Below are positions 8,635 to 48,736 of a DNA stretch of 64,000 bases, one piece after another. How positions within the stretch are numbered: the first letter of the stretch is position 1; each line of letters begins with the position of its first letter. Both the position numbers and the translations under genes were made by a program. Location: NCBI RefSeq assembly GCF_003403035.1, contig NZ_QURN01000004.1, forward strand, positions 186,001 through 250,000, given 5' to 3'. Under the pieces are notes generated by a model, which made no database searches, was not told the DNA's origin, and saw only the letters and a list, made by a program, of their open reading frames with translations. Source of the stretch: Mesorhizobium denitrificans. Lineage in GTDB: Bacteria; Pseudomonadota; Alphaproteobacteria; Rhizobiales; Rhizobiaceae.

Positions 8635-9276
8635 TCAAATAAAGCGCCAGACAGTCGTCTTCTTTACGTCCGCGTCTTCGAGTGCGCGCGTTACGGGCAC
8701 CTCGTAGGTGGCAAGCATTTCAAGGCGATCTTTCGGCAAATAGGAGCGACCGGGATCACCCACATAGATCTGCGTACCGCGACGGGCCAAAGCCGCAAAC
8801 CAATCGATGAGGCGGTCAGCGAACGGCTTTTCGTAGAATACGTCTCCTGCGAGCGCAACATCCCAATCGCCGTCATTTCCGACCAGATCGTCACCGATGA
8901 AGGAAATATCGACGGCATTTGCGTTGGCGTTAAGGGCGACAGCCGTTTCGCAGAAGGGGTCAATGTCAGCGGCCAATACAGAAGCCGCGCTGGAATTGCG
9001 GGCCGCGATGGCTACCAGCCCGGAGCCGGTGGCGAAATCCAGCACGCGCTTGCCGGCAACGAGATGCGGATTGTCGAGAATATGCCGCGCCAGCCCTTGT
9101 CCGCCCGCCCAGGCAAATGCCCAGAAGGGTGGCGGCAGGCCGATGGCGGCAAGCTCTTCCTCGGTCTTCTGCCAAAGCGCATGTGCTTCGTCCGCCAGAT
9201 GCAGCCGAATCTCCGGCACATGCGGCGGCGACATCAATACCGTGTTTTCGAGGATGAACTCACGTGAGGTGCGCAT
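8635..9276 (-). CDS. class I SAM methyltransferase, ETF-beta lysine methyltransferase-like
   Basis: 213 residues from ATG 9276; the frame stays open further upstream but that part overlaps the EVE gene and looks non-coding. SAM-binding motif I is VLDFATGSGLVAIAA and the acidic motif is AADIDP. GDVFYEKPFAD, YVGDPGRSY and the TTVWRF end match the METTL20/ETF-beta lysine methyltransferase group, of which an Agrobacterium member has been characterised. The predicted role is methylation of lysines on electron-transfer flavoprotein beta. A PrmA-like ribosomal L11 methyltransferase is the alternative, but the post-motif sequence favours ETF-beta. Confidence 0.72.
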   Translation of the reverse strand: MRTSREFILENTVLMSPPHVPEIRLHLADEAHALWQKTEEELAAIGLPPPFWAFAWAGGQGLARHILDNPHLVAGKRVLDFATGSGLVAIAARNSSAASVLAADIDPFCETAVALNANANAVDISFIGDDLVGNDGDWDVALAGDVFYEKPFADRLIDWFAALARRGTQIYVGDPGRSYLPKDRLEMLATYEVPVTRALEDADVKKTTVWRFI

Positions 9277-9292
9277 GGGTGTGAGCCAACGC

Positions 9293-9718
9293 TCAAGGCG
9301 CGGGATCGACCCCACCCATGCGGCAGACTTCCTTCCACTCGTCCGGCGTGACCGGTTGCACCGAAAGCCGCGAATTGTTGACGAGAACCATCTTCGAAAG
9401 CTTCGGATTGGCTTTGATCTGTTCCAGCGTCGGTGGGTTGGGAACGTCCCGCACGGCGCGGACATCGACACACTCCCATGTGGGATTATCGGCGGTGGAA
9501 TCGGGGTGGGCGAGCGCGCAAACCTCAACAATGCCAGCCGCACAAAGCCCGATATTGGAATGATAGAAAAAGCCGAGGTCGCCGATTTGCATGGCGCGCA
9601 TGTTGTTGCGCGCCTGATAATTGCGCACGCCATCCCATTCCTGGCCTTTCTGGCCTTTGGCCTTCAAATCATCGAAGGAAAAGACGTCGGGTTCGGACTT
9701 GAAAAGCCAGTAGTTCAT
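9293..9718 (-). CDS. EVE domain protein
   Basis: 141 residues starting MNYWLFKSEPDVFSFDDL at ATG 9718; four extra residues are possible from an upstream start at 9730. The whole protein is an EVE domain (PUA-like fold; WDGVRNYQARNNMRAM, GFFYHSN, WKEVCRMGG). EVE domains bind modified bases in DNA or RNA, but the role of this stand-alone form is not established. It sits 8 bases after the YciI gene and 16 bases before the methyltransferase gene in a minus-strand operon. Confidence 0.85.
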   Translation of the reverse strand: MNYWLFKSEPDVFSFDDLKAKGQKGQEWDGVRNYQARNNMRAMQIGDLGFFYHSNIGLCAAGIVEVCALAHPDSTADNPTWECVDVRAVRDVPNPPTLEQIKANPKLSKMVLVNNSRLSVQPVTPDEWKEVCRMGGVDPAP

Positions 9719-41609: not shown

Positions 41610-43664
41610 ATGCATCGCCTCGAAAGATTGTTGCGACCGCGCTCAATTGCAGTGTTCGGCGGGTCGTTCGCGGCCAATGTCGTGCAGCAATGCCGCAAGA
41701 TGGGCTTTGCGGGCGAGGTATGGCCAGTGCATCCGACCAAGCCGGAGGTGCATGGAGTCAAGGCATATCGGGGCGTAGACGATCTTCCCGGAGTGCCGGA
41801 TGCGGCGTTCGTTGGCGTGAACAGGCTGCTGACAATCGACATTGTGCGGCAATTGCGCGAGCGCGGTGCGGGCGGCGCGATTTGCTTCGCGGCTGGCTTT
41901 CTGGAAGCGGGCGCTGACGACGCAGACGGTGCGCGGTTACAGGACGAATTGCTGGCGGCGGCTGGCGATATGCCGATCATTGGGCCGAATTGCTATGGCT
42001 TGATAAATTACGCAGATGGCGCGTTGCTGTGGCCGGATCAGCATGGTGGCGAACGGCTGGAAGGCGGGCGCGGCGTTGCGATCCTCACGCAATCATCGAA
42101 CATCGCCATCAACATGACCATGCAGAAGCGCGGCCTGCCCTTGGCCTATGTCATGACGGCGGGTAATCAGGCGCAGACCGGTCTTTCCGAACTGGCGCTG
42201 GGGTTGATCGAGGATGAGCGCGTCTCAGCGCTGGGGCTGCATATTGAAGGGTTTGACTCGGTTACGGGCCTCGAAAAGCTGGCAGCGCGGGCGCGCGAAT
42301 TGCGAAAGCCGATAGTCGCCATGAAAGTCGGACGCTCGGAGCAGGCGCGCGCGGGCGCATTGTCTCATACGGCATCGCTGGCCGGGTCCGATGCTGCATC
42401 GGACGCATTTATGCGGAGACTGGGGATTGCGCGGGTAGATTCGATCCCGGCATTTCTGGAAACGCTGAAGCTGCTGCATGTGTGTGGCCCGCTGCCGGGT
42501 AATAAGTTGTCGTCTATGAGCTGTTCGGGTGGTGAAGCGTCTGTGATGGCCGATGCGGCGGAAGGACGGCCGCTGGTGTTCCCGAAGCTGGATGATGCAC
42601 ATCGAGCAAGCGTCAAGGAAACGCTTGGACCTCTGGTGGCTGTCGCCAATCCGCTCGATTACCACACCTTCATCTGGAACAACGAAGACGCCATGCGCCA
42701 GACGTTCACGGCGATGGTGTCGGACAGATTCGACCTCAACGCGCTGGTGTTGGATTTTCCGCGAAACGACCGTTGCTCGGACGCCGATTGGCAACCAACG
42801 CTGCGGGCGTTCAGAGCAGCTTTGACGGCGAAATCGGCGCGTGGGGCGGTGGTCGCATCGATGCCCGAAAATATGCCCGAAGGCGAGGCCAAGGCGCTCG
42901 TTGCGCAAGGCGTCGTGCCGCTGTTTGGCATTGGTGAAACGATGGACGCAGTAGAGGCAGCACATTTCATAGGTGCGGCATGGAGCAAGCCAGCATCTAC
43001 GGCGGTTGGCGACCGCGCCGCGTTAGTCGGTGAAACACAAGTGCTGGACGAGGCAACGGCGAAAGCGCTGCTGCGTGAGGATGGTCTGAACGTGCCGGCG
43101 GGAATTGTGGCTGCAAGCGTTGCGGACGCGGTGGATGCAGCGGGAAAGATCGGATTTCCGCTTGCGCTCAAGGCGCTGGGGGTCGCGCATAAGTCCGAGA
43201 CTGGCGCAGTTCGCCTGAACCTGCGCGATGCCGATACCGTGCGTAGCGTCGCGGAAGCGCTGTTGCCACTTGGAACGGGGCTCTTCGTGGAAAAAATGAT
43301 CGAGGGGGGCGTTGCCGAATTGATCGTAGGCATTACGCATGACGCGCTTTTCGGGCCGGTGATGACAATCGGCACAGGCGGTGTGCTGGTCGAGCTTTTG
43401 CAGGACAGCGCAACGCTGCTTCTGCCCGCGTCAAGGGACGAGATCGAGCGCGCGTTGCGCGGCTTGAAGATGTTTCCCCTACTGGAAGGTTATCGAGGCA
43501 GGCCAAAAGCCGATCTTCGCGCAGCCATCGAAGCAATTGCGAAAATCGGTGCGTTTGCACAGGCTGAAAACATCGAAGAACTGGACATTAACCCCCTGAT
43601 CGTTTGCGGTGAAGGCAAGGGCGCATGGATCGCAGACGCGCTGCTGGTTCGGAGGACGCAATGA
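41610..43664 (+). CDS. acyl-CoA synthetase, ADP-forming (acetate-CoA ligase family)
   Basis: 684 residues from ATG 41610, two bases after the dehydrogenase stop. Order: CoA-binding domain (1-130, RSIAVFGGSF), succinyl-CoA-ligase-like domains (about 145-450, with ILTQSSNIAINM and GALSHTASLAG), and a C-terminal ATP-grasp domain (about 475-684, FPLALKALGVAHKSETGAV, ELDINPLIV). It activates a carboxylate to its CoA thioester. Here it takes the place that CaiC (an AMP-forming ligase) has in enterobacterial carnitine metabolism. Confidence 0.87.
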   Translation: MHRLERLLRPRSIAVFGGSFAANVVQQCRKMGFAGEVWPVHPTKPEVHGVKAYRGVDDLPGVPDAAFVGVNRLLTIDIVRQLRERGAGGAICFAAGFLEAGADDADGARLQDELLAAAGDMPIIGPNCYGLINYADGALLWPDQHGGERLEGGRGVAILTQSSNIAINMTMQKRGLPLAYVMTAGNQAQTGLSELALGLIEDERVSALGLHIEGFDSVTGLEKLAARARELRKPIVAMKVGRSEQARAGALSHTASLAGSDAASDAFMRRLGIARVDSIPAFLETLKLLHVCGPLPGNKLSSMSCSGGEASVMADAAEGRPLVFPKLDDAHRASVKETLGPLVAVANPLDYHTFIWNNEDAMRQTFTAMVSDRFDLNALVLDFPRNDRCSDADWQPTLRAFRAALTAKSARGAVVASMPENMPEGEAKALVAQGVVPLFGIGETMDAVEAAHFIGAAWSKPASTAVGDRAALVGETQVLDEATAKALLREDGLNVPAGIVAASVADAVDAAGKIGFPLALKALGVAHKSETGAVRLNLRDADTVRSVAEALLPLGTGLFVEKMIEGGVAELIVGITHDALFGPVMTIGTGGVLVELLQDSATLLLPASRDEIERALRGLKMFPLLEGYRGRPKADLRAAIEAIAKIGAFAQAENIEELDINPLIVCGEGKGAWIADALLVRRTQ

Positions 43665-44443
43665 GCGAAGTGATAACGACTCGCCGCGAGGGCGGCATTC
43701 TGGAAGTCACGCTCGACCGGCCGAAGGCGAATGCAATTGACCTCGCAACCTCGCGACTCATGGGCACGACGTTCGAGGCATTTCGCGACGATCCAGAACT
43801 GCGCGTCGCAATTGTCAAAACGGCGGGCGATAAGTTTTTCTCGGCTGGTTGGGATTTGAAAGCTGCCGCTGCTGGCGATGCCGTCGATGGCGATTATGGC
43901 GTGGGCGGGTTCGCGGGCCTGCAGGAATTGCGCGATTTGAACAAGCCGGTGATCGCGTGCGTCAACGGCATGGCAGTTGGCGGCGGATTTGAATTGGCGC
44001 TCTCCTGCGATCTGATCTACGCGTCGGATCATTCGAGCTTCGCGCTGCCCGAAATTCGCGCCGGAACGCTGGCAGATGCCGCAACGATCAAGCTGCCCAA
44101 ACGCATCCCGTATCATGTGGCGATGGACCTGCTTTTGACGGGCCGCTGGATGGATGTGCAGGAGGCACATCGCTGGGGTCTGGTCAACGAGATTCTGCCG
44201 CAGGAGAAGTTGGAAGCGCGTGTGTGGGAAATCGCGCGGCTGCTGGCGAGCGGGCCGCCGATGGTTTTCGCGGCAATCAAGGAAGTCGCACGGCGCGCAG
44301 AGGCGATGGAATTTCAGGATGCAATGAATTGGGTGACGAAGCGGAAATTCCGCACCGTGGATGAGTTGTATTCGTCTGAGGATGGGCTGGAAGGTTTCAA
44401 AGCGTTTGCGGAAAAACGCGATCCCGTGTGGAAGGGGCGGTAG
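43661..44443 (+). CDS. enoyl-CoA hydratase/isomerase, CaiD-like (carnitinyl-CoA dehydratase)
   Basis: 260 residues, the length of E. coli CaiD. Close resemblance runs end to end: LEVTLDRPKANAID, KFFSAGWDLKAAAAG, FAGLQELRDLNKPVIA, GGGFELALSCDLI (oxyanion hole) and FAEKRDPVWKGR at the C-terminus, which is almost identical in CaiD. It would dehydrate carnitinyl-CoA to crotonobetainyl-CoA or the reverse. The catalytic-glutamate region (residues 110-140) reads EIRAGTLADAATIKLPKRI and differs from CaiD, so the exact substrate may differ. It overlaps the CoA ligase stop by ATGA. Confidence 0.8.
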   Translation: MSEVITTRREGGILEVTLDRPKANAIDLATSRLMGTTFEAFRDDPELRVAIVKTAGDKFFSAGWDLKAAAAGDAVDGDYGVGGFAGLQELRDLNKPVIACVNGMAVGGGFELALSCDLIYASDHSSFALPEIRAGTLADAATIKLPKRIPYHVAMDLLLTGRWMDVQEAHRWGLVNEILPQEKLEARVWEIARLLASGPPMVFAAIKEVARRAEAMEFQDAMNWVTKRKFRTVDELYSSEDGLEGFKAFAEKRDPVWKGR

Positions 44444-44460
44444 CCAACTTGGTATGCATT

Positions 44461-44487
44461 CCCTACGGCCAAATGGTAGGGTATAAT
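44461..44487 (+). promoter_or_regulatory. hairpin and TATAAT box before the islet gene
   Basis: CCCTAC (44461-44466) and GTAGGG (44476-44481) form a 6-bp stem after caiD, followed at once by TATAATTTT. It may act as a weak terminator for the caiD operon. The TATAAT (44482-44487) lies seven bases before the ATG at 44494 and could be a -10 box giving a leaderless message; no clear -35 or ribosome site is seen. Confidence 0.35.
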
Positions 44488-44493
44488 TTTCCG

Positions 44494-45141
44494 ATGGATA
44501 TATGGAAAACAATTTTAACTGCCGTCGTGGGTTTCGTGCTCACAGGTGTCGTGGGAACGTGGATCACCTATATTTGGCAGAAAAGAAATTGGCGATTTCA
44601 GCAAGATTATGTACGAAACAAGGAGTTGTTGAGTCAGCAAATTCAGATAGTTGAAGGTCTATCTGATTTAATTGGGTCTAGGAGATTTCGGACTTTTCGA
44701 GCGACTGCGGCTCTCAGGGGACGTGATGCTGAACGCGTTCGGGTTGCGTGGGAGGAATACGACAAGTCTGTTATTAAATGGAACGAAAGTGTGAATGGAT
44801 ACATAACGAAGTTGCGTCAGTTCTTCTCAAGAAGCCTGCAATATCAGCTAGAAGAAATTATACGAGAATTTCAGCAAATCGGTTCCCTAGTAGAGCAATC
44901 AAAAAGAGAATTTGATAGGAGCGATTTCGGTCACGGGTATTTTGAAAATCTTCGAGACATATCAGGCCAAGTCGAATTATTTGGCGGGACTGTAAATACT
45001 TATATCGGAAATCTATGGTCCCATATTGACGGACTAAAGGAGCGTTTCGATGGCGTATTCGCAATATCGTTAGAGAATGAAAAACATCTATCAAATTGGT
45101 ATATATTCAAACAGATATTTGTAAGAAGGCGCGAGTTTTAA
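44494..45141 (+). CDS. membrane-anchored helical protein of unknown function (AT-rich islet)
   Basis: 215 residues from ATG 44494; in-frame starts further up overlap the caiD end. One membrane helix (6-28) is followed by a basic stretch and long amphipathic helices rich in Gln, Glu and Arg (about 35-145: YVRNKELLSQQIQIVEGL, YQLEEIIREFQQIGSLVEQ). No enzymatic motif is seen and I recognise no family. Base composition is clearly AT-richer than the flanks (a hand-counted 60-base line gave 43% GC), pointing to recent transfer. Its last 51 bases overlap the 3' end of the convergent GT51 gene. Confidence 0.7.
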   Translation: MDIWKTILTAVVGFVLTGVVGTWITYIWQKRNWRFQQDYVRNKELLSQQIQIVEGLSDLIGSRRFRTFRATAALRGRDAERVRVAWEEYDKSVIKWNESVNGYITKLRQFFSRSLQYQLEEIIREFQQIGSLVEQSKREFDRSDFGHGYFENLRDISGQVELFGGTVNTYIGNLWSHIDGLKERFDGVFAISLENEKHLSNWYIFKQIFVRRREF

Positions 45142-45738
45142 CGCGTAGCGCTTTCTCTTATCTACTTTTTTCAGCCACAACGGTGTTGGATGTGTGGGGC
45201 GCGGATATACTAGGTAAGAGGCAATTTCAGCAGCATCCTCCTCTGTTAGTTCTCCAAGGGATTTACCGAATTCGTTAAATGCGACTGCCTCGCAATTCGG
45301 CATCAATCCCCCGTAGTGTTGGACCGGATACCTCGCGCCATAATATGCGATGGAACAATAGCATAAGAGCATGTCTCTTTTTGAAAAGTGCCAATTACAC
45401 AGATGCGCAAGCAAAATTTCGTATAGTTTACGACTTAAAGTTCGCTCATACCTCGCGGTAACCGTACGAACTAACTGCATCTCTATTGTACTAAAACCAC
45501 CATGCCGTCTAAGTGTTACTAGGCGCCAAAAGTCTCTCAAAAATGAAATATAATCTATCCCCTTATGGCTATAGTACCTCCTGTCTTCTAAAACTAGAAC
45601 ATACCGATATAAATTAATATAGCTATCACATCTAGTGTCTTGTATGGCGTTATCGAGGAGGTGCAAATCGCCGTATATTCCAATTAGAAAACGCTTCAAA
45701 GACGGAAGTCGAAGCGGCTGGTTTCTGAAACGAAGCAT
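45091..45738 (-). CDS. stand-alone GT51 peptidoglycan transglycosylase-like protein (AT-rich islet)
   Basis: 215 residues, all one GT51 domain. Motif 1 is LEDRRYYSHKG with the catalytic Glu at E51; motif 2 GGFSTIEMQLVRT (80-92); motif 3 RKLYE (103-107) with the second catalytic Glu; then SKRDMLLCYCSIAYYG and a proline-rich YPRPTHPTPLW end like that of penicillin-binding proteins. It has no transpeptidase domain and no clear N-terminal membrane helix, unlike MtgA or PBP1. A 60-base line counted by hand was 35% GC. It starts 38 bases after arfB on the same strand. Either a specialised cell-wall enzyme or a cargo/defence gene; family assignment is by motif. Confidence 0.72.
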   Translation of the reverse strand: MLRFRNQPLRLPSLKRFLIGIYGDLHLLDNAIQDTRCDSYINLYRYVLVLEDRRYYSHKGIDYISFLRDFWRLVTLRRHGGFSTIEMQLVRTVTARYERTLSRKLYEILLAHLCNWHFSKRDMLLCYCSIAYYGARYPVQHYGGLMPNCEAVAFNEFGKSLGELTEEDAAEIASYLVYPRPTHPTPLWLKKVDKRKRYALKLAPSYKYLFEYIPI

Positions 45739-45776
45739 TATTCTGATTTTCGAAATTGATTATATTACCCAGCGAT

Positions 45777-46211
45777 CTAATCATCAACGCGCCGACTTCG
45801 CAATCGCTTGATTGCAGAGCGGCCAGCCTTGGACTTCAGTCGTCGCTCGACAGACCCCTTGGTCGGTTTGGTTTTCTTGCGCGGCGGCGGTGGCGGCTCG
45901 GCGGCTTTGGTGAGCAGTTCGACGAGACGTTCAAGAGCGTCAGCGCGATTGCGTTCTTGCGTGCGAAAGCGGGCTGCTTCGATCTGGATCACGCCATCAC
46001 GTGTTGCGCGCTGCCCCGCGAGTTTCAACGCACGAGCACGCACGCGCGGCGACAGACCGGGCGCATTTGCGGCATCGAAGCGAAGCTGTACCGCCGTCGC
46101 CACCTTGTTGACGTTTTGGCCGCCCGGCCCGGACGCGCGGATAAAGCTCTCGGTCAGGTCGTCGGGATGAATTGCAGCTTCGGCGCTGATATGGATGATT
46201 TCTTCCGCCAT
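45777..46211 (-). CDS. arfB: ribosome-rescue peptidyl-tRNA hydrolase ArfB (YaeJ)
   Basis: 144 residues from ATG 46211. It frees stalled ribosomes lacking a stop codon. The GGQ motif is at 30-32 in RASGPGGQNVNKV. The C-terminal tail is basic (PPPRKKTKPTKGSVERRLKSK, cited in part: KKTKPTKGSVERRLKSK) and would thread into the empty mRNA channel. Length is typical of ArfB, not RF1/RF2. It follows pckA on the same strand after the pckA terminator. Confidence 0.92.
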   Translation of the reverse strand: MAEEIIHISAEAAIHPDDLTESFIRASGPGGQNVNKVATAVQLRFDAANAPGLSPRVRARALKLAGQRATRDGVIQIEAARFRTQERNRADALERLVELLTKAAEPPPPPRKKTKPTKGSVERRLKSKAGRSAIKRLRSRRVDD

Positions 46212-46234
46212 GACGACTTGATGCCGCCTCACAC

Positions 46235-48093: not shown

Positions 48094-48345
48094 TCATCGC
48101 GAAACGTTCTTGCACGCAGGACCGATCAATTCCGCTAGATCGACTTGCACCGCATAAGCCACCCGCAGCGCTTCTTGCAACGTGATTTCGTTTTTTCCGA
48201 GTTCACACTGGTCGAGCTTATCTTCCGGCACGCCCGAGAGGCGCGCGAGCACTTTCAACGGCATCCTCTGTTTCAGCCTTGCAGCATGGATGTTTTGGCC
48301 GATGGTCAGGCACAGATGGCGTAAGAGATGCGTGCGGTAGTCCAT
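48094..48345 (-). CDS. XRE-family helix-turn-helix protein
   Basis: 83 residues, essentially one HTH domain: IGQNIHAARLKQRMPLKVLA (15-34), LSGVPEDKLDQCELGKNEIT and a third helical part up to LIGP. Cro/C1-like DNA-binding proteins of this size are often autoregulators or partners of toxins, but no toxin gene is adjacent. It lies between pckA and the divergent second XRE gene. Confidence 0.8.
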   Translation of the reverse strand: MDYRTHLLRHLCLTIGQNIHAARLKQRMPLKVLARLSGVPEDKLDQCELGKNEITLQEALRVAYAVQVDLAELIGPACKNVSR

Positions 48346-48470
48346 GTTCGCCTAACCCCGATACCGCATGGAAGCGCGCTCGCCCGGAACGATCTGTTTT
48401 GGCGCGCAAATATTGGAAGAGTTGATACGTCGTGATAAGCAATTCTAGATTTCACCAAAATCAATACAGT

Positions 48471-48499
48471 GTAATATAAAATAAGAACAGGGTAATATA
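48471..48499. promoter_or_regulatory. 21-bp-spaced direct repeat between the divergent XRE genes
   Basis: GTAATATA occurs at 48471-48478 and 48492-48499, a 21-base period (two helical turns) just before the second XRE start. Such spacing fits an autoregulatory operator or overlapping -10 boxes. The 48346-48470 remainder shows nothing else clear. Confidence 0.4.
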
Positions 48500-48736
48500 T
48501 TGACCCCCTCACAAGTGCGGATGGCGCGTGCAGCGCTCAAAATTGGTGTTCGAGAGTTGGCTGTCATGTCAAACGTCACCACCGCTACCATAACACGCTA
48601 CGAGAATGAGCGGGGAGGCATGCACGCCGATACTCGCGATAGGGTTCAAGAAGCGCTCGAATCCGCGGGTGTTGAGTTCATTGCCGAGAATGGCGGTGGC
48701 GTGGGCGTAAGGCTGCGAAAGAGCAAGTCAATATAA
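48500..48736 (+). CDS. XRE-family helix-turn-helix regulator
   Basis: 78 residues with a probable TTG start at 48500; the in-frame ATG at 48521 would remove the conserved MTPSQVR beginning. HTH: ARAALKIGVRELAVMSNV then TTATITRYENERGG (recognition helix), and a C-terminal LESAGVEFI with GGVGVRLRK. Small regulators of this shape are common in rhizobial chromosomes and prophage remnants. Target unknown; probably itself and the divergent XRE gene. Confidence 0.8.
   Translation: MTPSQVRMARAALKIGVRELAVMSNVTTATITRYENERGGMHADTRDRVQEALESAGVEFIAENGGGVGVRLRKSKSI

Follow-up and report, generated by a model that had tools for sequence, protein, structure and literature searches.

The GT51 enzymes known to date assemble the cell wall from the periplasm, to which an N-terminal membrane segment carries the housekeeping members of the family. 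The protein p2 described here shares with MtgA and the class A PBPs the GT51 domain (PF00912) with its motifs ED.R, H.G, G.STI, RK..E and Y..G, but it differs from them in three respects: the p2-like proteins of types A and C (see below) have no visible N-terminal segment, these proteins form a separate group in the tree, and they are accompanied by a mobile partner gene. Cap15 and OptE, the two-TM beta-barrel proteins of CBASS and Panoptes, and the CD-NTase-like cyclases will be compared with the partner genes below. A further comparison is offered by the Min-Wnt domain, which is presumably unrelated to GT51.

In the passages of PMC12419801 considered here, Min-Wnt and prok-TelC of the Lipocone superfamily are proposed to attack lipid II inside the cell before it is flipped, as antiviral proteins without secretory signals. 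They share the target logic proposed below for the p2 module, as an analogy and not as a sign of membership, and differ in that they would cleave at the lipid head group (PMC12419801, same passages) whereas p2 would polymerize. Hotspots of prophages and their satellites are short stretches of high turnover that hold anti-phage systems and are bordered by conserved phage genes (PMC9122126, the part considered here), and the type B modules of this study lie in comparable places. The terms transglycosylase, glycosyl and peptidoglycan are absent from the main text of that report (Rousset et al., PMC9122126); transglycosylase, glycosyltransferase and peptidoglycan are absent from the main texts of DefensePredictor (PMC13092281) and Vassallo et al. 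(PMC9519451). Consistent with the suggestion of an earlier note on this DNA that the system could be undescribed, nothing describing the module was found in Pfam, NCBIfam, PADLOC, PHROGs or the literature searched, which was largely open-access and covered as main texts only.

The islet and the site it occupies

The window, i.e., the whole stretch of DNA analyzed, is 64 kb long. The earlier note had pointed to an AT-rich islet with deviant codon use between core genes, and the measurements agree. The islet (1333 bp) has a GC content of 41.8%, compared to 58.6% for the window, and among 1254 segments of 1333 bp taken in 50-bp steps, the lowest in GC was the islet itself, no other being as low. 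The GC3 values of its two genes, 0.39 for p1 and 0.41 for p2, compare with a mean of 0.66 (sd 0.06) across the 47 mechanically called window ORFs of at least 150 aa, p1 and p2 included. The features are as follows.

43625 to 44443, plus strand: enoyl-CoA hydratase gene of the caiD type, on the same strand as p1 and ending 50 nt before it
44444 to 45776, no strand: AT-rich islet (1333 bp), flanked by the caiD-type gene and by arfB (GC scan, homology breakpoints)
44494 to 45141, plus strand: p1, 215 aa, N-terminal TM helix and predicted four-helix bundle (ORF, hydropathy, AlphaFold model)
45091 to 45738, minus strand: p2, 215 aa, stand-alone GT51 domain, Pfam Transgly (Pfam, motifs, hydropathy)
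45091 to 45141, no strand: 3'-3' overlap of p1 and p2, 51 nt (ORF coordinates)
45777 to 46232, minus strand: arfB-type gene (RF-1 domain), adjoining the islet

The start of p1 was placed at the ATG at 44494; an alternative GTG at 44428 would run into the caiD-type gene. The remaining ORFs of at least 60 aa between the flanking genes overlap p1 or p2 and are mechanical in appearance; no transposase or integrase was seen by eye among the ORFs of this size, in line with the view that the islet holds nothing mobile. An operon of p1 and p2 was ruled out, as the genes are convergent with their 3' ends overlapping by 51 nt. This overlap could couple the expression of p1 and p2 by antisense reading. 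As p2 starts 38 nt past the arfB gene on the same strand (42 nt in the related locus L021), read-through from arfB into p2 may also be possible.

The flanking DNA is homologous to locus L029 of a congener (G002) up to 44444, one base past the stop codon of the enoyl-CoA hydratase gene (last base 44443), and again from 45817, a position within the arfB gene. The earlier note had proposed to look for an empty site at this junction in relatives. The site is not empty: the gene order in G002 is arfB, a 172-aa LysM/BON (kbp-like) gene and the enoyl-CoA hydratase gene, and both congeners (G001 and G002, loci L029/L030) carry the LysM/BON gene beside arfB. Of 30 arfB loci of the family, 19, those of G001 and G002 included, have a relative of this gene no more than 1.5 kb from arfB, and there is none near arfB at the window locus (L028), at 10 other family loci or at L021. 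In whole-genome searches, the match in the source genome (G000) was limited to the LysM part of a 526-aa frame, the L021 genome gave LysM-part matches to longer frames only, and the gene itself was present in G001 and G002. As the LysM/BON gene is next to arfB in both congeners and is missing in G000 and the L021 genome, gene order indicates that the islet occupies its place in the latter two genomes.

L021 belongs to a Mesorhizobium MAG, in which the p1/p2 pair immediately follows arfB and is bordered on its other side by a gene for an AlkB-type 2OG oxygenase. Its two proteins are 57% and 60% identical to those of the window, and the gene plan and the 51-nt overlap are kept. By gene order, then, the pair sits at the same place in two genomes, which may reflect either one old event or exchange via the flanks. 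The window islet is surrounded by core genes and is not in a defence island.

Elsewhere in the window (48094-48736), the genes for PEP carboxykinase and a response regulator flank a stretch of lower GC (about 47-56%) with two small, helix-turn-helix-like ORFs of 83 and 78 aa. The first had no Pfam match, and the second had a LacI-type match below the threshold. In L021 the two flanking genes adjoin each other.

The GT51 protein and its partner

The earlier note had assigned the islet a membrane helical protein and a GT51-like enzyme, and both assignments were supported. p2 matches Pfam Transgly (PF00912) with an E value of 1.5e-25 and 90 bits, well over the cut-off of 27, while its score against the MtgA equivalog TIGR02070 is 38.5 bits vs a cut-off of 182.65. 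The catalytic motifs are intact: ED.R, H.G, G.STI, RK..E and Y..G were invariant or nearly so in an alignment of 14 small GT51s, and the two acidic residues of ED.R and RK..E, which are catalytic in GT51, were invariant across all 14. The type A profile aligns through the catalytic motifs with the sequence of the Aquifex PBP1A structure. The source genome encodes five further GT51s besides p2.

Membrane segments were sought by hydropathy, as the maximum Kyte-Doolittle-19 value (KD19) upstream of the catalytic Glu. p2 reached 0.68 and has no visible N-terminal membrane segment, compared to 2.51-2.64 for the three MtgA-like copies of the genus, so that on hydropathy only, p2 does not carry an MtgA-type membrane anchor. 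The same was found for the type A GT51s (0.48-0.93; all five complete ones) and the type C GT51s (0.57-1.10; 3/3), whereas all six type B GT51s have a hydrophobic segment (1.73-2.61). The 15 housekeeping GT51s, all of the genus, ranged from 1.25 to 2.64, 13 of them reaching 1.6 and the other two giving 1.59 and 1.25; the topology thus comes from one crude hydropathy scale on which the gap between the type C top (1.10) and the housekeeping low (1.25) is small. The identification of p2 as MtgA was ruled out by the equivalog score, the hydropathy and the tree position (see below). Judged from its profile and motifs, p2 is a GT51 protein, not an MtgA, and is the putative effector of the pair.

The partner, p1, has one TM helix at about residues 7-25 by hydropathy, and its AlphaFold model shows a long helix and a bundle (pLDDT 81.2, pTM 0.66), residues 190-215 being mostly below 50. 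No above-cut-off match to p1 was found in Pfam (best DUF2062, E 0.1), NCBIfam or PHROGs. A Foldseek search gave nothing significant: its best E was 0.047, and the non-significant rows included four-helix bundles, chemoreceptor ligand domains for example. A sequence search against the PDB gave coiled-coil-like matches only, the best (0.0028) to a designed protein. In PADLOC, the window p1 showed a weak match to PDC-S06 (E 0.003, 51 residues) that was not common to the two p1 homologues scanned.

The charges around the TM helix are informative about its orientation. The six paired p1 copies have at most one basic residue before the helix and two to four in the 15 residues after it, and by the positive-inside rule, basic residues following the helix mean that the helical bundle of these copies probably faces the cytoplasm. 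The unpaired homologue at locus L026 is reversed, with four basic residues before the helix and two after. This gene (G298, 8696-9322, minus strand) has no GT51 in its 18 kb and is an AT-rich single-gene insert (40.8% vs 67.0% GC for the locus); it is perhaps an orphan partner. p1 also has a conserved WN motif. We regard p1 as a putative sensor, tether or control partner.

Recurrence, partner types and distribution

The earlier note had named a lack of co-occurrence of the two families as grounds against its reading, and this does not hold: the pairing recurs. Type A, in which a p1-type gene is convergent to and overlaps a GT51 gene, was found at six loci: the window, L021, L065, L109, L123 and L122, with 3' overlaps of 51, 51, 84, 23, 36 and 18 nt, respectively. 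The GC content of the pair is below that of its surroundings in all six. L065 and L109 are viral contigs, and L122 and L123 come from genomes of the order. The L122 GT51 gene is cut by the contig start, and this truncated copy was left out of the GT51 sets, although the locus is counted among the 15 below; in L065, the p1 gene starts right at the final base of the contig, so that its start is unsure. The sole neighbor identified on the L065 contig is an IS110-type transposase gene. On the L109 contig, the pair is beside a TIR gene, and CHAP endolysin-type and DUF2793 genes are also present. The product of the adjoining gene (L109 5946-7157) is a TIR domain (Pfam TIR_2) fused to a right-handed beta helix.

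Two other partner types exist. In type B (L025, L061, L063, L068, L105 and L106), an overlapping membrane protein gene precedes the GT51 gene, and in type C (L059, L066 and L067), a gene for a nucleotidyltransferase-like protein follows it; both are co-directional, unlike the convergent type A (6/6). Every distinct small-GT51 locus examined has a partner (15/15: 6 A, 6 B and 3 C), where L122 was found through p1 and is not independent for this count, the others having been found via the GT51 or being the starting locus. Copies were merged as follows: L060 (99.5%), L062, L073 and L074 into L061; L064 and L072 into L063; L069 (99.5%) into L068; and L071 into L070. Same-contig merges were L108 and L126 into L065, L110 into L067, L111 into L066, L112 into L072 and L127 into L109. 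L070, 86% identical to L061, has a partner too; it was included neither in the tree or the hydropathy set nor among the 15 loci. The L106 partner is an open 206-aa frame recovered by profile, and one genome (G727) carries two different type B modules, L105 and L106.

The type B partner resembles Cap15 and OptE in that its N-terminal membrane helix or helices are followed by predicted strands, i.e., a weakly predicted beta-rich domain. However, the three partners scanned had no Pfam or PADLOC match, the PDB sequence search gave nothing of note, and the model is of low confidence (mean pLDDT 50.3), its best VIA-align Z of 3.1 being to unrelated folds and Cap15 not appearing among the matches listed, which carries no weight; the annotation surrounding the E. 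coli type B copies names no CD-NTase. The type C partner shares with CD-NTase-like cyclases a nucleotidyltransferase-type GSAR...SDLD motif and, for L059, a weak PADLOC match to 'oligonucleotide-cyclase' (E 0.0054, 13.9 bits). This match is far too weak for an assignment, and that to Pfam NTP_transf_2 is under the cut-off (L059, E 0.013); the L067 partner weakly matches a PHROG of unknown function, and nothing of note was found for the type C partner among PDB sequences. PADLOC gave no match for the three GT51s scanned (window, L061 and L059), and PHROGs gave none for the window p1 and p2 or for the two further p1 copies that were scanned. PHROG families of unknown function were weakly matched by the GT51s of L061, L065 and L067 (phrog_33002), as well as by the L061 partner and, as above, the L067 partner.

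In the tree, one branch (97/94) separates the 14 small GT51s from 37 housekeeping domains, 6 of the 43 housekeeping loci having been dropped beforehand as they failed the motif filter. Within the small GT51s, types A (98/90) and B (100/94) form groups, and the three MtgA-like copies of the genus fall outside this side. The tree is unrooted with several long branches, so that the inner placings are unsure.

The module is mobile and sporadic, with prophage and plasmid carriage. The L061 module lies between the tail-fibre assembly and tail-sheath genes of a prophage that we take, from its gene order, to be P2-like. The P2 hotspot itself, in the part of PMC9122126 considered here, is next to cos, unlike the L061 position. 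In lambdoid prophages, type B modules lie between the Q antiterminator and holin genes, next to the lysis genes, and the remaining contexts include an integrase island, plasmids, and integrase and recombinase neighbors. The Aliarcobacter plasmid locus L059 (5950-12459), which comes after an IS21 element, carries the GT51 and nucleotidyltransferase-like genes and, after them, genes for DUF4365, phospholipase D-like and TIR-domain proteins, and looks like a small defence cluster. In a survey of neighbors that was not systematic, a TIR gene was seen beside L109 and annotated TIR and DUF4365 genes near L059, while no known defence gene was seen beside the window islet.

The distribution is narrow. 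The earlier note allowed that the islet might be conserved vertically in the genus, and this is not so: the two fellow genus genomes gave housekeeping GT51 matches only (2/2), and p2 was absent from all 150 other family genomes sampled. At E <= 1e-18, a p2-type GT51 occurs in 1 of 151 family and 2 of 385 class genomes; a six-row GT51 profile at 170 bits or more found it in 2 of 299 phylum genomes, the next best being long-frame GT51s at 118 bits; and type A GT51s (E <= 1e-34) occur in 2 of 199 order genomes. p1 as a single sequence (E <= 1e-3) matched 3 of 385 class genomes, one of these a kinase-like match that was dropped, and a seven-row profile matched 2 of 190 class genomes. In the order, p1 was present in 3 of 199 genomes, in all three convergent to a GT51 gene. 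A scan of a public genome set with short p2 peptides returned one close relative, L021. In E. coli, the type B pair was matched at the DNA level in 5 of 5426 complete genomes, in two of them over at least 80% of the query. Being recurrent, AT-rich and absent from congeners, the pair behaves as the foreign unit of a wall-polymerase fold and a membrane helical protein that the earlier note had supposed.

For p1, no plasmid match was obtained with the window or L065 copy as query; in viral contigs, one profile gave none and another one locus, the L065 contig. Plasmid searches with GT51s returned at least 382, 360 and 499 records, mostly with housekeeping names where annotated, of which three (H2, H11 and H21) were examined, and p2 had at least 29 records in a phage collection, the best among the matches listed (E 6e-11) being a Microcystis phage gene named mtgA. 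Several candidates were rejected: L020 (p1 match, E 6.9e-4) is part of a 745-aa, sensor-kinase-like protein with two membrane segments; L107 (104 bits) is inside the housekeeping GT51 range; and H2/L058 is an ordinary 824-aa PBP. The weak matches to clostridial GT51s (L022-L024) were left out.

A possible conflict module and the alternatives

Our preferred reading, still a tentative one, is that the islet represents one instance of a mobile conflict module of two genes, which most likely acts against phages, with p2 as the effector and p1 as its control. Infection would then trigger arrest or death via the module. As p2 lacks the N-terminal membrane segment that takes housekeeping GT51s to the periplasm, it would, as a lipid II polymerase, stay in the cytoplasm and meet lipid II on the inner leaflet only, before flipping. 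Polymerization there would tie up the precursor and its undecaprenyl carrier, and wall synthesis would stop. The membrane helix of p1 would hold the cytoplasmic four-helix bundle, which might tether, restrain or activate p2 on the trigger, and in other members p1 is replaced by a membrane protein (type B) or a nucleotidyltransferase-like protein (type C). From the features described above, we infer cytoplasmic action, toxicity, control by the partner and phage as the trigger. A broader version, which we consider doubtful, is that there is a class of signal-less GT51 immune modules in which the partner senses infection and inner-leaflet polymerization traps the undecaprenyl carrier, bringing wall synthesis to a halt, the three partners being interchangeable sensors.

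The earlier note had suggested a role in defence, competition or the envelope; the support for it is circumstantial, coming from the prophage, viral-contig and plasmid locations and from the TIR genes near two modules. Several observations count against a defence module: the convergent arrangement of type A, which is uncommon among operons of the toxin-antitoxin or defence kind; the unpaired p1 of L026 with its reversed charges; and the core-gene setting of the window islet, together with the lack of a PADLOC match for the three GT51s scanned and of a significant fold match for p1. In addition, types B and C may differ from type A: with their N-terminal hydrophobic segment, the type B GT51s may be periplasmic, and the inner-leaflet idea might then not extend to all members. 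In its size, its mobility and the contexts in which it occurs, the module is similar to defence or toxin-antitoxin systems, and we claim membership in neither.

Alternatively, the pair could be a toxin-antitoxin or addiction module in which p2 is the toxin and p1 the antitoxin, maintaining the element without sensing phage. Its two genes are small and adjacent, their ends overlap, and the unit is mobile, AT-rich and conserved as a pair (15 of 15 small-GT51 loci have a partner). The nucleotidyltransferase fold is known among antitoxins, and type C joins the GT51 with a nucleotidyltransferase-like protein. We nevertheless consider this explanation unlikely, since type A is convergent (6/6) and not operonic, the window copy is a chromosomal islet with no visible element to maintain, and several type B copies are in prophage cargo positions. 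The type B positions adjoining the lysis genes in lambdoid prophages, and the hydrophobic segment of the type B GT51s would suit a cargo that acts in the periplasm, remodelling the envelope or excluding superinfection by extra glycan strands that hinder phage DNA entry or lysis. This seems more improbable still for the group, as types A and C have no visible export segment and the charge pattern of the six paired p1 copies points to a cytoplasmic domain.

Two simpler accounts are each very improbable. The GT51 fold and catalytic motifs are what would be expected of an ordinary, horizontally acquired, MtgA-like monofunctional glycosyltransferase with an unrelated neighbor, but p2 is separated in the tree from the genus's own MtgA-like copies, scores 38.5 bits where 182.65 are needed, has no visible anchor and occurs in a genome with five other GT51s; the recurrent partner and the tree position have already weakened this account. 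That the islet is a decaying or neutral insert without function would agree with its AT-richness and its rarity (1/151 family genomes), but not with two intact frames that, at 57% and 60% identity to L021, have kept both the gene plan and the 51-nt overlap.

If the conflict-module reading is correct, the module would allow the effect of polymerizing lipid II before flipping to be tested directly, and the enteric prophage version would be a tractable laboratory case. Lipid II polymerization would then join the known immune effector chemistries, and a core wall polymerase would have become, in bacteria and their prophages, a weapon under regulation or a switch for arrest.
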